Shown: piece by piece, positions 39,132-48,208 of the stretch
How the letters are laid out: the number at the start of each line of letters is the position of its first letter
Numbering within the stretch: position 1 is the stretch's first letter
DNA from: Roseofilum halophilum BLCC-M91
GTDB lineage: Bacteria > Cyanobacteriota > Cyanobacteriia > Cyanobacteriales > Desertifilaceae
Assembly: GCF_030068445.1 (NCBI RefSeq)
Contig: NZ_JAQPOK010000148.1
Span: forward strand, 1-64,000
Reading direction: 5' to 3'
DNA: 64,000 nt
Made by a program: the position numbers and the translations under genes
The notes under the pieces: model-generated
Seen by the model: only the letters and a program-made list of their open reading frames with translations
The model's database searches: none
Told to the model about the DNA's origin: nothing

Positions 39132-39590
39132 TTACTGGGCTTTGACTAAAATTAAGTCTCCTTCTTGTTTGACTTCAAAGTAAGGTAAGGGTTTTTCCGC
39201 AGGAGGGGATAGAACTGCGCCATCTAAGCCAAATTGGGAACCGTGACAGGGACATTGAAATCGGTTTTCATCGGCGGACAGTTCGACGGTGCAACCTTGA
39301 TGGGTACACATGGGATTGAGGGCGACTATGGCTTGGGTGTCGGGATGGCGGAAAATAAGGACGGATTTGGGAGCGTTGCGTCGGTCTAGGATGGTTCCTT
39401 GGGCTTCGAGTTGGGGGATTGTACCGAGGGCTTGAAATCCGTCTTCGCCCATGGAGGTATCAATATCAGGGCTGTTATTGCTGGAGGGAGTTGGCGGCGT
39501 TTCTCCAGAGTCGCAAGCGGAGAGGGTGGGGGGGAGGAGGCTCGCGAGTGCGCTTAGGGTCATCCAACGGATAAAGTAACGACGTTCCAT
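39132..39590 (-). CDS. Rieske 2Fe-2S protein with Tat/lipoprotein signal
   Basis: Protein of 152 residues with a C-terminal Rieske domain: CTHQGC (ligands Cys and His) and CPCHGSQF, the typical 2Fe-2S binding pair with the disulfide Cys. The N-terminus has RRYFIRW (twin-arginine-like), then a hydrophobic region ending LSAC, so it is probably exported folded and lipid-anchored. It is not PetC-like in length or anchor. It lies 18 bp after the long CcsA gene and is likely an electron carrier of the multihaem locus. Confidence 0.88.
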   Translation of the reverse strand: MERRYFIRWMTLSALASLLPPTLSACDSGETPPTPSSNNSPDIDTSMGEDGFQALGTIPQLEAQGTILDRRNAPKSVLIFRHPDTQAIVALNPMCTHQGCTVELSADENRFQCPCHGSQFGLDGAVLSPPAEKPLPYFEVKQEGDLILVKAQ

Positions 39591-42083: not shown

Positions 42084-43499
42084 CTAATTTTCTACTAAAT
42101 TAACTGCTGGTGACGGGTAATGACTGATGGCTTTCTGAATCGTCCTACCGTAAAACATTGTACCAATACCGACAACGACGAGGACGGAACCTGTCCAGGT
42201 GAGTAGGGTTATCCACAGGGGTTCGCGTTTCACTTGTAGGGTAGATTGGCGTAAATCTCCGGGATTCCAGGAAGCTTGGGCGATTTTCCAGCCCTGATAC
42301 CAGGTGGGGTGGTTCATCCAAACCGTGCGATCGCTGCTAATATGCTGATGATAGTCTTGAATTTGGATTTTGCTCGTCCACATGGCGACACTATCGGAAC
42401 CTTCATTGCGCTCTACGATAAAGTCTTGCAAAGCAACTTGAAAGGGAAGGGAAAAGAGTTTAGGGGTAAAAGCTGCCAGAATTTCCCCCTCTGGTGCGGG
42501 GATAGGGGTAGGTTCTCCCCAAGGGAGCCATTGTTGAGTTCCCGTTTCTGTTTCGACGAGGATAGCGGGACTCCCTTGCACGGTGCGATCGCCAACTGGT
42601 ACAATTTTACGGTCTATCTGAGCAGGGCTGAGTTGCTCTTCTAGGGTAAGTTCAAAGTCTGCCCAACCCAGTTTAACCGGTTGATTTACCTCTAGGATAC
42701 CGGATTGGAAGCCTTGAGAGGAATGGGTTGCATAATAGAGTTTACCCGATGAAGTGGCGATCGCCTGAAAATAATTCCCCTCTGAACTATCCGCCAGTTC
42801 TTCAAGTTTCCCCTGCGCTACCTCCTCACTCTCTACCGCACTCAACACCAATTCAGCCAGCCCCAAACTTACCCTACGATAAGATAACGGTGCAAACGCT
42901 AACCATTGTTCTAAATCCTGTCCCATCCGCTCACTCGTTAAGTGCAACTTCAGAGCCACATTACTCCTATTCCCTCCCTCTTTAAAATTTACCACTTTTA
43001 CCGTATTTTCCGCATAACCTAACAGAGAAAGCCCCAACACCGAAGAAGGCGAAATCGAACCATTTGGACGGATAAAAATATCCCTTTCTGCCGTTTCACC
43101 TTCAGGAGTCATCACTTCCAATAAATCGCCCTCAATGCGAATCTGATTATTCGCCCCTCGATCCTCCCGTAACGGTAACATTCCCTCCAAGCTCAAATGA
43201 ATCACTCCCGCCGATCCCATAATAATTAAAACCAATCCAATATGAGTTAAGGCAAACCCTACTTTACGAGAGCCTCGCCAAGGATAGCGGGTGAATGCCG
43301 AAATCGATAAATTAACCGCCAGCAGGAACATCAGCATCCCAAACCAGGGACTCTTATAAATCAAATGTTGAACTACAGTTGAGCCAACTTGAGCTTCATA
43401 AATTGTCGCTCCGATTAAAATCCCAGCAATACTCGCTAGAAGAGGAATTGCAAACTGGATTGAGCCGAAAAACCGGATCAAAGGAGTATTCATCTTCAC
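42084..43499 (-). CDS. ResB/Ccs1 cytochrome c biogenesis protein
   Basis: ResB-like component of System II haem-attachment, 471 residues. Three N-terminal membrane helices (about 10-35, 60-80, 88-112), a large extracytoplasmic domain (about 115-435) and a C-terminal helix (about 440-460). PWRGSRKVGFALTHIGLVLIIMGS is family-typical, with the His thought to bind haem. It lies upstream of the MntA/HepT pair and the long CcsA gene, the expected operon order for ResB then ResC. Confidence 0.85.
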   Translation of the reverse strand: MKMNTPLIRFFGSIQFAIPLLASIAGILIGATIYEAQVGSTVVQHLIYKSPWFGMLMFLLAVNLSISAFTRYPWRGSRKVGFALTHIGLVLIIMGSAGVIHLSLEGMLPLREDRGANNQIRIEGDLLEVMTPEGETAERDIFIRPNGSISPSSVLGLSLLGYAENTVKVVNFKEGGNRSNVALKLHLTSERMGQDLEQWLAFAPLSYRRVSLGLAELVLSAVESEEVAQGKLEELADSSEGNYFQAIATSSGKLYYATHSSQGFQSGILEVNQPVKLGWADFELTLEEQLSPAQIDRKIVPVGDRTVQGSPAILVETETGTQQWLPWGEPTPIPAPEGEILAAFTPKLFSLPFQVALQDFIVERNEGSDSVAMWTSKIQIQDYHQHISSDRTVWMNHPTWYQGWKIAQASWNPGDLRQSTLQVKREPLWITLLTWTGSVLVVVGIGTMFYGRTIQKAISHYPSPAVNLVEN

Positions 43500-43647: not shown

Positions 43648-44574
43648 ATGACCTTATTCACAGCCGAAGAAGTTTTAAACAAACTCCAGGAAGGAGAATC
43701 TTTTGTAGGAGCTGAATTAAGCCGGATTAATTTAGAAGATTGTATTCTCGATGATGGTAATTTTACTCAAGCTTATCTGCGTGGCGCAAACCTATCTAGG
43801 GCCTTTTGTCAAGGGACAAATTTTTTCCAAGCCAACTTGATGTTAGCCAATTTAACGGAAACTAATTTAGTTTGCGCTAACTTATCCCATGCTGAACTCA
43901 ATAGAGCTTGTTTACAGAGAGCCAATTGTCGATCGCTGCAAGCAAGTTACACGAAACTCTACGGAGCATCCTTAGATCTCCTGAATGGTATTGATGCTAA
44001 TTTTTCTAAATCAGATATGAGAGAAATCAAAGCACAAAAAGCTAATTTCAGTCGCGCCAATTTAAATCAGGTTAATCTCACTTCTGCTCAATTAATCAAA
44101 TGTGATTTTACAGAAACCAGTTTGCGATCCGCTATTTTAGAACAGGCAGATTTAAGCAGCAGTATATTGATCAAAACTGACTTAGAAAAATCAAACTTAC
44201 ATCGGTATATTTGCTTAAACAGTCACTGGAAAAACTGTAATTTAGTCTCTGCTAATTTATCTGAAAGCGATATTCGCTCTAGTCAAATACAAGATACAGA
44301 AATCCTAGGTGCAAACTGTATAAATGCATCTTTTACTGATAGTGTATTAGAACATTGTTCATTTTTATCTGCTGATTTAAATTTCGCTTTATTCGATCGA
44401 GTAAAGTTAGTAGAAATCAGCTTCCAGGATGCCAATTTAGAACAAACAATTTGGAAAAATGTGGAGTTTATTAACTGTGAAGTCATGGGAGCCATGTTTA
44501 CGGATGCCCAAGGATTGACTGACGCTCAAAAAAATTGGTTAAAAAATAATGGTGCATTAAATGTTCCCCGTTAA
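43648..44574 (+). CDS. pentapeptide-repeat protein
   Basis: Protein of 308 residues with tandem A(D/N)LxX-type pentapeptides (e.g. ANLSRA, ANLTET, ADLSSS, ANLEQT) from about residue 35 to 290, forming a right-handed beta-helix. No signal peptide or membrane anchor. Function unknown. It is on the plus strand between the ResB gene and the cytochrome operon, which run on the other strand, so it probably interrupts what was a continuous redox unit. Confidence 0.9.
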   Translation: MTLFTAEEVLNKLQEGESFVGAELSRINLEDCILDDGNFTQAYLRGANLSRAFCQGTNFFQANLMLANLTETNLVCANLSHAELNRACLQRANCRSLQASYTKLYGASLDLLNGIDANFSKSDMREIKAQKANFSRANLNQVNLTSAQLIKCDFTETSLRSAILEQADLSSSILIKTDLEKSNLHRYICLNSHWKNCNLVSANLSESDIRSSQIQDTEILGANCINASFTDSVLEHCSFLSADLNFALFDRVKLVEISFQDANLEQTIWKNVEFINCEVMGAMFTDAQGLTDAQKNWLKNNGALNVPR

Positions 44575-44710
44575 GGAAAGATTTGATATCAAATCCGCTT
44601 TCTCATGTCTGTAAAGCAGAAACACCATAATCAAAAATCTAGGGAGCGAGACGCTACCACTCCAGTAATATCAACCGATTCAAAATGTTTTTGGATGGCG
44701 ATTGTCAGCA

Positions 44711-45313
44711 TTACTGATAATAGTAGGCAATGATAATATGGAAGATCAACATCACTAAAAACATGCTGACTAAAATAAGATGAGTCGTCAGCCAAATTCC
44801 TCTGAGGTTACGAATTAAAACCCCTTTAGAAATGGCTGAATTAGCAGTAGCAGGGAATAAACTGAATCGGAAATAGCGCTGGGAAGATTCTACAATTCCA
44901 GTCTCAGCAACGACTCCGACTAAAGCGGATAAGGTAACCAGGAAAAAAATCCATAGAAAAATGGCATTAAAATTAAGACCTCGCACGCCTATAGTATGGA
45001 TGAGTGTACTGCCAACTAAGGCGATTCCTAGAAAAATATGTAGGCTTCTCCAAAGCTGAATACTTCCCGGAACTTTGATTTTGATTTTCCAACTTCTTCC
45101 CCGTTTGCGAAAGGTCAAGATCATTTCTAGAATTACAAATATCAGGGATAAATATCCAGTAATTTGCTTATAAAGATCGCTTTGAAAGGTTAAATAGAGA
45201 TCGAAATCATTTAAGCGTAGGGCAGGGATATAGTTAGGGCTGAAAACAAAAGGGGTGAGCAAAACAGCACAAACTACGGTTAAGAGAATGAGGGTAGAAA
45301 ACTTGGGTTTCAT
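44711..45313 (-). CDS. membrane diheme cytochrome b-like protein
   Basis: About 200 residues with five membrane helices. Helix 3 has H92 and H106 and helix 5 has H178 and H192, each pair separated by 13 residues (HX13H), the spacing used by diheme cytochrome b (bc1/b6 and related quinol oxidases) to bind two b-haems. The frame runs upstream to 45343, but that part is a dispersed repeat, so MKPKFSTLIL at 45313 is chosen. It is the last gene of the multihaem operon and the best candidate for quinone contact. The family was not identified. Confidence 0.75.
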   Translation of the reverse strand: MKPKFSTLILLTVVCAVLLTPFVFSPNYIPALRLNDFDLYLTFQSDLYKQITGYLSLIFVILEMILTFRKRGRSWKIKIKVPGSIQLWRSLHIFLGIALVGSTLIHTIGVRGLNFNAIFLWIFFLVTLSALVGVVAETGIVESSQRYFRFSLFPATANSAISKGVLIRNLRGIWLTTHLILVSMFLVMLIFHIIIAYYYQ

Positions 45314-45427
45314 GGTATACGGTAGGCAATAGGCAAAAGGCAAGAACTTGTAATATTAATTAAAAATTAAGGGAGAGAATACCGAATGTGGATTCCTCCC
45401 CGAATCAAACCTAAAAGAAGAAATAGA

Positions 45428-46084
45428 TTAAGTTCCTTCTAGGGGTAAGTTAATTACGACACCCCCCATAACATCTCCCAATTCAAAGATTTTATCGGGA
45501 TAGCGTTCTTTATGGATGGGATGGCTATTGTGACAGGTAACACAAGCTTCGGCGATCGCCTTATCGGGATAAATAGCAGAGTAATATTCTTGACCAGCAA
45601 TTTCCCGATAATCTTTATAGGGTTCCCCCGTATCAATAACAGTTTGCATCCCCACTTCTTCAAACTCTCCCCTGGGGGCTTGTGCATCATTAATATTCCA
45701 AGGTGAAATTAAGCCATACGTGAATGTACCTTGTTCAGAAGCCAGTTCTGCACCTAAACGGAACATTTGCGCGGGGAGCGGAATACCATTGGCATCTTGC
45801 CAAGCTTCCGTTGCTTCTGCGGGAACGACTCCATTAGGTTTCTCTTGTCCTTCTAATGTTTTCAGCCGGTTAACCACATGCTTGGTATAGGCAGTACGAT
45901 CGGATTCAGCGACGGCATGGATATAATCAACCACCAGAGCAGGATCGATGCCACTGGTTTGAGTCGAGCTACTGGTGTTTCCACCAGCACAAGAAACAGC
46001 AGTCAGACAAATGGCTGTCGCTAAAACAAATAGACTAATGGTTTTCAGTTTCAGTGAACGTATCCAGGTTTTAAGGATAGGCAT
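45428..46084 (-). CDS. Tll0287-like (DUF3365) c-type haem lipoprotein
   Basis: Protein of 218 residues with a lipobox (LTAVSC, Cys32) and one CxxCH haem site, C181-H185 (CVTCH). The segment VDYIHAVAESDRTAYTKHVVNRL is typical of DUF3365. Family member Tll0287 has a PAS-like fold with one c-haem; its role as sensor or electron carrier is not settled. It follows the hexaheme gene by 30 bp on the same strand. Confidence 0.88.
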   Translation of the reverse strand: MPILKTWIRSLKLKTISLFVLATAICLTAVSCAGGNTSSSTQTSGIDPALVVDYIHAVAESDRTAYTKHVVNRLKTLEGQEKPNGVVPAEATEAWQDANGIPLPAQMFRLGAELASEQGTFTYGLISPWNINDAQAPRGEFEEVGMQTVIDTGEPYKDYREIAGQEYYSAIYPDKAIAEACVTCHNSHPIHKERYPDKIFELGDVMGGVVINLPLEGT

Positions 46085-46114: not shown

Positions 46115-46900
46115 TTATTCAGAGTCTGAAGCGGTTCGCTTTGCTTCTAGCGTTCTCACTAACTTCAGAGTTTCTAAATCTTGTTGAGGGGAATGATGAA
46201 AGTTACCCTCAATTAACCCATCATCAAAGATGCTGTTGTAGGAATATTCCAAACCGTGGCAATTCATGCAAACATCTTTCACCATGCGATCGCGCGGGAG
46301 CAGGTTGTAAGTGTTATTGTGATTAACAAACACAGAATTGGTATTTTCGTTGCGTGTGCGGGGTAAATGGCAGGTTGCACAAGTCACCAGATCGGGACTG
46401 GGGCGAGGCAGTCTTACGGATGCAGCAAATAAAGAACCATGTTTTGAATCCCCATAATTGAGAGAATGGGCATCATTATGGCATTGCAAACAAGAGTCCA
46501 CCGAAGCCTTAAAGGTGTCGGGTTGATGGACATCATGGCAGGTATTGCACCCCATCACCTGTTCCCTAGCCGAAGCTTTCATTGGTAAATGTGCCATCTT
46601 TGGAGTTAAGGGAGAAAGTCCTTCAGCAGTACGAATGCCATGTTTACCGAGCAGAAACGTATCAACCTGTTGCTGATGGCAACTTTGACAACTTTCTTGG
46701 TTCGGACGAACCACAAGGGCTTTGTTTTCTCCCACTTGGTGACAGGTGGAACAGTTCACATCTGCGAGAGCGTGAACGCTATTTTCCCATTGCTGAGTAA
46801 TTTCTGTTACTCGTTCTGAGGAGACCGGGGAGGCGATCGCCCCATGACTCCAGAGCATCAGAACCAGCCACAAGAGCGCGACCATAACCTTCTTAATCAT
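46115..46900 (-). CDS. hexaheme HAO-like cytochrome c
   Basis: Exported protein of 261 residues with a Sec signal (cleavage after AIAS, about residue 24) and six CxxCH motifs at 50-54, 71-75, 118-122, 137-141, 174-178 and 211-215. Spacing and surrounding residues (SVHALADVNCSTCH, CQSCHQQQV-F, CNTCHDVH, CLQCHNDAH-SKHG, TCATCH, VCMNCH) match by eye haems 2, 3, 5, 6, 7 and 8 of hydroxylamine oxidoreductase. Equivalents of haem 1 and of the catalytic haem 4 (P460) seem to be missing. So it is probably an electron-transfer protein or has another site. It overlaps the pentaheme gene by 4 bp. Confidence 0.85.
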   Translation of the reverse strand: MIKKVMVALLWLVLMLWSHGAIASPVSSERVTEITQQWENSVHALADVNCSTCHQVGENKALVVRPNQESCQSCHQQQVDTFLLGKHGIRTAEGLSPLTPKMAHLPMKASAREQVMGCNTCHDVHQPDTFKASVDSCLQCHNDAHSLNYGDSKHGSLFAASVRLPRPSPDLVTCATCHLPRTRNENTNSVFVNHNNTYNLLPRDRMVKDVCMNCHGLEYSYNSIFDDGLIEGNFHHSPQQDLETLKLVRTLEAKRTASDSE

Positions 46901-47544
46901 GCTCCACCCTCCAGAAACTCTTCACCCAAATCGGGTTGAGGAGGTTCATTCTGAGTCAGCGTGACCTCTAAATTAGGCAGTTCTGGCTTCGGTAACAAGA
47001 TGGGCTGATTCAAGTTTTCCCGCAAAAAACCCGTCGAAATTGACCGATGATCGTGGAAATTATGACATCCTGCTGTCCAACACCCATCCGGCTCAAACCC
47101 TTGATGACTAGGAATATCCCCGGCAATCACTCCTTCATGACAAGCCATACATAAATCGGGTTTCAGGTGAACCCCCCGACCAAACATATGCACATGCTCT
47201 GCATGACATGCCGTACAGGTTAGAACATCTAAGTTCTCTAAATATTCTGCCCAACGGGGATCGCGAAACTTTTTCGGGCCGTGAGCATCACTAACTAGCT
47301 CCGCTTCATGACAACGCATACAGGTTTCATTACTGACCGGCTTAAATCCTTCATGACAGGAGCTACAGGAGGCTTCAATCAAGGTGTGGCCGTCTGATGT
47401 GACTCCTGGAAGAAAGATTTGACGTTGATCTAAGGCAAACGCAGCAATTCCCCAAACCAGCAGCAAAACCACCACTGCTACGATCGCACTCTTGACTTGA
47501 AAAAGATTTTTTAGGAAAGGAAATCGCTGCAAATTGCTGGTCAT
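46897..47544 (-). CDS. membrane-anchored pentaheme cytochrome c
   Basis: Protein of 215 residues with one N-terminal membrane anchor (about 18-38) and haem sites CxxCH at 60-64, 75-79, 110-114 and 132-136, plus CX4CH at 155-161 (CWTAGCH), a form also used in cytochromes c3. Mature part faces the periplasm or lumen. Acidic, Pro-rich C-terminal tail. Lies 3 bp downstream of the globin gene and overlaps the hexaheme gene, so the two cytochromes are likely partners. Confidence 0.87.
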   Translation of the reverse strand: MTSNLQRFPFLKNLFQVKSAIVAVVVLLLVWGIAAFALDQRQIFLPGVTSDGHTLIEASCSSCHEGFKPVSNETCMRCHEAELVSDAHGPKKFRDPRWAEYLENLDVLTCTACHAEHVHMFGRGVHLKPDLCMACHEGVIAGDIPSHQGFEPDGCWTAGCHNFHDHRSISTGFLRENLNQPILLPKPELPNLEVTLTQNEPPQPDLGEEFLEGGA

Positions 47545-47547
47545 GAC

Positions 47548-47979
47548 TTAAGAAAGTTGGGTTTCTGCTTTGTCGTATTCAGCTCCTTCTAGCATCAGAT
47601 TCGTAATCGCTTGATAGGCCTCAATCCAAGCTTGTTTAACTTCAGGAGTCCAGCGATCCCCCAAGTATTGTTCAAAGGTTTTTAACAGCGCTCCACCAAC
47701 TAGGGGATAATGGGCAGGAAGGGCCCCATACTTAACATGACGTGCCCCTAAGCCTTTGAGTGCATCACTTAAGGCTTCTGGCTTCCGTAAATTTTCGACG
47801 GTAAAGACCAAGGATTGCAAAAGCATTTGCTTTTGTTTCTTCATATCCGTATGTTCAAACAGGGGCTTTGCTTCCGGATTATCCGTAAACAAATTGTTAT
47901 AAAAGCTTTCTGCAAATTCATTGGCTTCTGGCTTGACTTTTTCAAAGCTTTCTTCCAGGAGTTCGACTTTTAGTGACAT
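47548..47979 (-). CDS. single-domain globin
   Basis: Protein of 143 residues of the flavohaemoglobin-like single-domain globin type. The proximal His is in ARHVKYG (about 79-85) and a Tyr in helix B (FYNNLF) and Gln at the distal position (KKQKQML) fit an O2/NO-binding site. No reductase domain is fused. It is first in the multihaem operon, preceded by AAGGAG and an inverted repeat. Possible roles are NO detoxification or sensing; no proof here. Confidence 0.92.
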   Translation of the reverse strand: MSLKVELLEESFEKVKPEANEFAESFYNNLFTDNPEAKPLFEHTDMKKQKQMLLQSLVFTVENLRKPEALSDALKGLGARHVKYGALPAHYPLVGGALLKTFEQYLGDRWTPEVKQAWIEAYQAITNLMLEGAEYDKAETQLS

Positions 47980-48040: not shown

Positions 48041-48208
48041 TATAACTTCTATATATCCAGATAGTTCAAGGATCTTCTGTAATATCAACTACGAAAAAAC
48101 TTAGATATTCAAGCAAATACATAAATGATATGCAAAAAAAGCATAACTAGAGGCTTGCTCCCTAGGTTTTTAATTTCGGACTTGATATTACTGATGAAAA
48201 ATGATGGA

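Follow-up and report, generated by a model that had tools for sequence, protein, structure and literature searches.

The predicted hexahaem c-type cytochrome encoded in the window (the whole 64-kb stretch of DNA analysed here) belongs to a conserved cassette, in which genes for a globin, a probable pentahaem cytochrome, the hexahaem protein, a Tll0287-like protein and a cytochrome b follow each other in the same order across homologous loci of many cyanobacterial families, as read from the loci with enough flanking sequence (Table 1). We tentatively interpret the cassette as an NtcA-controlled haem relay that would lead from the periplasm to a cytosolic globin, with electrons moving inward, probably for the handling of NO, and the hexahaem protein is probably a non-catalytic carrier within it. 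The parts are of known kinds, and their combination is apparently undescribed: no description of the cassette was found in the literature searched, which, its coverage being partial, is weak evidence of absence.

Table 1. Features of the cassette and its surroundings, with positions in the window.
Feature	Position	Strand	Details
Rieske protein, twin-Arg lipoprotein-like N-terminus	39132..39590	-	PF00355, E 2e-13; in 14 of 27 neighbourhoods
Long CcsA paralogue, 569 aa	39609..41318	-	PF01578, E 7e-30
Ccs1/ResB-like protein, cytochrome c maturation system II	42084..43499	-	PF05140, E 5e-13; conserved neighbour
Pentapeptide-repeat protein, 308 aa	43648..44574	+	full-length homologue of near-constant length at most loci compared
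Membrane cytochrome b-like protein	44711..45343, start probably 45313	-	two HX13H pairs
Tll0287-like (haem-Cache) monohaem protein	45428..46084	-	PF11845, E 2e-15; lipobox Cys32
Predicted hexahaem c-type cytochrome, 261 aa	46115..46900	-	ATG start; six CxxCH and six invariant free His
Hexahaem CxxCH motif 6, residues 211-215	46256..46270	-	matches NrfA haem 5 / HAO haem 8
Hexahaem CxxCH motif 5, residues 174-178	46367..46381	-	matches NrfA haem 4 / HAO haem 7
Hexahaem CxxCH motif 4, residues 137-141	46478..46492	-	HAO haem 6 position
Hexahaem CxxCH motif 3, residues 118-122	46535..46549	-	HAO haem 5 position
Hexahaem CxxCH motif 2, residues 71-75	46676..46690	-	HAO haem 3 position
Hexahaem CxxCH motif 1, residues 50-54	46739..46753	-	HAO haem 2 position
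Membrane-anchored cytochrome, four CxxCH and one CX4CH	46897..47544	-	N-terminal hydrophobic anchor; overlaps hexahaem start by 4 bases
Single-domain globin, flavohaemoglobin/Vitreoscilla type	47548..47979	-	PF00042, E 1e-18
NtcA-type box GTAGTTGATATTAC	48079..48092	-	113 bp upstream of globin start

The N-terminus of the hexahaem protein was recognized by eye as a Sec-type signal peptide, which leaves about 238 mature residues and would place the protein in the periplasm (or lumen). All six CxxCH motifs named by the original prediction are present in the reading frame (at residues 50, 71, 118, 137, 174 and 211), and the region between residues 76 and 117 is indeed free of such a motif, with haems 1 and 4 of hydroxylamine oxidoreductase (HAO) missing. 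No other reading frame in the 64-kb window carries six CxxCH, and the adjacent pentahaem gene is the only further one with at least two. In an alignment of 40 homologues (56-91% identity) the six motifs are invariant, and six free histidines, H43, H87, H125, H145, H154 and H194, are invariant or nearly so; by DNA, the locus is closest to Roseofilum acuticapitatum and to a MAG related to it (88% protein identity), which assigns the window to a Roseofilum-like cyanobacterium. Since six haems need six distal ligands and exactly six invariant free histidines are available, an open site is not expected, and the protein looks like an all-bis-His, low-spin electron carrier. Two roles had been suggested for it originally, and the electron conduit is the better of them, while the new enzyme is disfavoured by the same six histidines. 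The AlphaFold2 model, generated from the 40-sequence alignment, was of low confidence (pLDDT 43, pTM 0.32).

We then turn to the kinship of the hexahaem family. Among PDB sequences the family profile matches 6h5l best (E 1e-8), an octahaem protein of the HAO-like kind from Kuenenia; the alignment puts motifs 1-4 at the positions of HAO haems 2, 3, 5 and 6 and leaves the haem-4 CxxCH in a gap. This latter motif is located 9-10 residues upstream of haem 5 in HAO and HAO-like sequences, and it is missing in all 40 hexahaem homologues. Motifs 5 and 6 match, when the family profile is compared with the PDB, the two final haems of NrfA and octahaem nitrite reductase (ONR), which we take from published superpositions to be HAO haems 7-8; the numbering proposed at the outset (haems 2, 3, 5, 6, 7 and 8) thus fits the alignments, through 6h5l for the first four motifs and NrfA/ONR for the last two. 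However, although the profile search returned an HAO-like protein as the best PDB match, DmsE/MtrA-type decahaem cytochromes match the family profile more strongly: hhalign against the family profile gave E 1e-14 for DmsE and 2.5e-10 for HAO, and TIGR03508 (DmsE/MtrA-type decahaem) matched at E 1e-12 to 1e-14, at 48 bits versus a curated cutoff of 192. In a shuffle control, where every CxxCH was kept and the remaining residues were shuffled, 6h5l reached a z of 7.3, the NrfA and ONR haem pairs 5.4 and 8.7, and the DmsE-type decahaem cytochromes 3.2-6.3, whereas two true HAO sequences, with 1.8 and 0.6, barely rose above the shuffles. Judged by sequence, the relationship to a broad multihaem superfamily appears genuine, and membership of the HAO family is not established. 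The multihaem family PF13447 yielded no match in the window's own genome, nor in the controls.

The order and spacing of four motifs are common to the hexahaem protein and to HAO and Kuenenia HAO-like proteins (1fgj, 4n4j, 6h5l), as are the contexts of haems 5 and 6 (CHxxH and YxxSKHG). On the other hand, HAO has eight CxxCH haems in 500-570 residues, while the hexahaem protein has six in each of the 40 homologues, without haem 1 and the catalytic haem 4, at less than half the length; a C-terminal helical domain of HAO-like length was not seen in it, and unlike in HAO there is a candidate invariant distal histidine for every haem. NrfA and ONR (2j7a, 3sxq) have the context of the last two haems in common with it, xCATCHxPR...PRDxM...CxNCH, but it lacks the CxxCK or other active-site haem of these enzymes, and a good alignment is limited to two of its six motifs. 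The strongest profile likeness is that to the DmsE/MtrA decahaem family (TIGR03508), along WxxSxH...CxxCH...CQSCH...F...H...CxxCHxxH; these proteins however possess ten haems and an MtrB/porin partner, against six haems and no MtrB/porin or decahaem partner in the cassette.

The neighbouring genes encode further redox proteins. The CX4CH of the anchored cytochrome (CWTAGCH, residues 155-161, at 47062-47082) and its four CxxCH are invariant among the 27-38 homologues aligned, and the protein is probably a pentahaem cytochrome. The Tll0287-like protein, by its motif a predicted lipoprotein, has a conserved CxxCH at residues 181-185 and a conserved Cys32. PF11845 with a CxxCH is common to this protein and to Tll0287 and the haem-Cache group, but Tll0287 has His/Cys ligation, which is unlikely in the cassette protein because its conserved cysteines are limited to that of the lipobox and the CxxCH pair. 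According to a 2026 preprint (PMC12889525), stand-alone haem-Cache members are redox-like and poor NO binders, and NO is bound by those members in which the domain is joined to signalling parts. The cytochrome b-like protein displays four invariant histidines, H102/H116 and H188/H202, each pair in HX13H spacing. Such pairs are the classic arrangement for two b haems, one per membrane side, and by this spacing the protein fits a di-haem membrane cytochrome b. Its AlphaFold2 model is a helical bundle (pLDDT 85), for which Foldseek and VIA-align recovered cytochrome b561 at a Z of 8.2 and the cytochrome b of hydrogenase at 8.0, with unrelated bundles scoring higher; sequence matches to DUF4405 and b561-type proteins were weak.

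The window globin matches the profile of NO-inducible flavohaemoproteins (E 1.8e-23), and its nearest solved relatives include the Methylacidiphilum and Vitreoscilla globins. When aligned to the Hell's Gate and Vitreoscilla globins, the cassette globins compared keep the distal Tyr B10 (SFY) and Gln E7 (xxQxxxLL) and the proximal His F8 (LGARH), residues that flavohaemoglobins use for NO dioxygenation, and on this basis the cassette globin is predicted to be of the NO-dioxygenase type. Vgb, Hell's Gate globin I and the globin domain of the Synechococcus NOS belong to the same sequence family and possess the same Tyr, Gln and His. Unlike Vgb-type single globins, however, the cassette globins of most loci consist of two tandem domains, or three in one locus (L063 10618-12165, 515 aa), followed by a C-terminal hydrophobic membrane tail, and it is because of these tails that a cytosolic placement is proposed. 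One locus (L062) has a single globin with a tail, and Roseofilum, Symploca and a few others have a single free domain; the window globin is accordingly without second domain or tail. The reductase domain that flavohaemoglobin carries is absent from the cassette globins. Halomicronema-like and related genomes encode an additional free globin beside cytochrome b (L042 12594-13124; L065 6331-6861), which is divergent, about 176 aa long and has LGAYH instead of LGARH.

The conserved surroundings of the hexahaem gene were absent from the original prediction. Among 390 sampled cyanobacterial genomes, 37 encode the hexahaem protein, two further weak, stop-containing matches having been left out, and the distribution is patchy: the window genome is alone in its own order in the sample, and Spirulina, Xenococcus and Prochloron are also positive. 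The pairwise distances of the hexahaem, pentahaem, Tll0287-like and cytochrome b proteins correlate (r 0.79-0.91), the pattern of a unit inherited together. In the window's own genome (4.85 Mb, 95% complete) no further paired CxxCH (30-60 bases apart) or c3-type profile matches were detected beyond the hexahaem and pentahaem genes, and an MtrCAB-type extracellular conduit is therefore unlikely within that search range.

Regulation appears to link the cassette to nitrogen. The NtcA consensus, GTAN8TAC (PMC3898017), is present within 400 bp upstream of the globin in 13 of the 26 orthologous loci, with 0.8 expected, half of the loci being without an exact copy within this distance. It ranked at the top of 512 triplet-palindrome/spacing controls, was recovered in about 11 of 15 groups when close relatives were counted once, and had a density of 0.50 per 400 bp upstream, compared with 0.15 in the remaining non-ORF parts of these loci; boxes of the FNR and CRP types stayed at background level in front of the cassette. 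Thus, the cassette is apparently switched on by nitrogen shortage via the predicted NtcA sites. NtcA controls many genes, nitrogen-fixation genes among them, and for this reason the box names no substrate. In the 390-genome sample the cassette showed no association with nifD (16 of 37 with nifD, odds ratio 1.6, p 0.20), and nifD had no match in the window's own, 95% complete genome, indicating that the carriers of the cassette are not united by nitrogen fixation.

In the relay that we propose, the outer side would be occupied by the haem lipoprotein (one haem), the hexahaem protein (six) and the anchored pentahaem protein (five), the membrane by the cytochrome b with two haems, and the cytosol by the globin, tail-anchored with two or three domains in most species. 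The pair of Ccs1 and long CcsA, usually with a thioredoxin, would attach the c haems of the cassette. Inward electron flow would then keep the globin haem ferrous, enabling the globin to convert NO and O2 into nitrate (or to reduce a nitrogen oxide), and the removal of NO would protect the cell and save nitrogen when NtcA signals shortage. Gene order, the inventory of ligands, co-occurrence, promoter boxes and the lack of further multihaem partners are observations, whereas we infer the haem content and topology of this relay as well as its substrate and the direction of the electrons, for which the anatomy of the cassette would suit an outward flow just as well. The inward direction is favoured because cassette globins without a reductase domain need a donor, which the cassette supplies, and a role in NO dioxygenation because NtcA control points to nitrogen. 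It seems rather unlikely that the cassette forms a new transmembrane haem circuit in the full sense, with at least 14 haems in series, its own attachment machinery and a membrane-tethered array of one to three globins, for conversion of NO to nitrate or O2 handling under the control of nitrogen. If the relay exists as proposed, it represents a cyanobacterial multihaem relay that is nitrogen-linked and without obvious extracellular respiration. It would also couple a bacterial single-domain globin, which needs a reductant, to a membrane cytochrome b and a multihaem wire.

Alternatively, electrons may travel outward, from a cytosolic reductant through the globin or cytochrome b (or from plastoquinol through cytochrome b) to the pentahaem and hexahaem proteins and on to a periplasmic acceptor, for instance Fe(III), nitrite, O2 or a further carrier. 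Many quinol-driven chains of periplasmic reductases are built from a membrane cytochrome b with an anchored and a soluble multihaem protein, and the strongest profile match of the hexahaem protein, to DmsE/MtrA-type decahaem cytochromes, is congruent with such an arrangement. Nevertheless, no terminal reductase, other multihaem protein or porin-cytochrome partner was found in the genome, and the constant globin would be left without a clear role, making the outward direction rather doubtful. Buffering or scavenging of O2 for microaerobic metabolism, for example dark nitrogen fixation, would give the globins a task, as membrane globins would bind or reduce O2 with electrons of the relay. Globins bind O2, nitrogen-fixation genes are also under NtcA control, and many of the hosts are cyanobacteria that form mats, but the lack of a nifD association and the unmatched nifD in the window's own genome render this quite unlikely.

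The remaining possibilities shift the function to single components. The Tll0287-like lipoprotein and the globins may sense redox state or NO, the multihaem proteins only poising them; some haem-Cache domains do bind NO, but the behaviour of the stand-alone members (PMC12889525) and the cassette's lack of any conserved gene for signalling output make a sensory function very unlikely. Finally, a hexahaem protein that itself oxidises or reduces some nitrogen compound, with a haem outside the CxxCH motifs or an unusual site as its active centre, would suit the HAO-like top match in the PDB and the NrfA/ONR-like C-terminal haem pair, and yet is highly improbable considering the missing haem-4 motif, the invariant candidate distal histidines and the short mature chain.

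As for the haem-attachment pair invoked in the inward relay, Ccs1 and the long CcsA occur in 22 of the 27 neighbourhoods compared. Their domains are as in the Ccs1/CcsA pair of system II, the difference being that in the cassette the long CcsA is an additional copy linked to a single multihaem set; an ordinary CcsA frame of 342 aa is located on a different contig of the window's genome. Of the 390 genomes, 36 carry the long CcsA, as detected by its N-terminal domain, and 34 of these also have the hexahaem protein, with three genomes having the hexahaem protein only, two the long CcsA only and 351 neither (Fisher p 5e-43, phylogeny ignored). In one of the two genomes with the long CcsA only (L079) the contig breaks off at the point where the cassette would be expected to start. 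In the other (L078, 8124-17371) the cassette has decayed: a stop splits the CcsA frame, the cytochrome b gene is truncated and directly adjoins a transposase, and the globin and all multihaem genes are gone. Such decay would be expected of a long CcsA that has no use once its clients are lost. Wolinella has dedicated Ccs paralogues for unusual haem motifs, and the invariant CX4CH of the pentahaem protein is a possible reason for the dedicated long CcsA here. If so, a second CcsA would be kept for one client set, possibly for this motif.

A thioredoxin is encoded near the cassette in 20 of 27 neighbourhoods compared. In both closest relatives a thioredoxin-like gene follows cytochrome b (L032 12180-12644; L033 5766-6209), whereas in the window it is missing and the flanks are closely joined (44574-44711), which marks a recent deletion in the window strain. 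Additionally, a ChaN-type haem-binding lipoprotein lies beside the cassette in eight of the 27 loci compared (for example L066 4759-5637).
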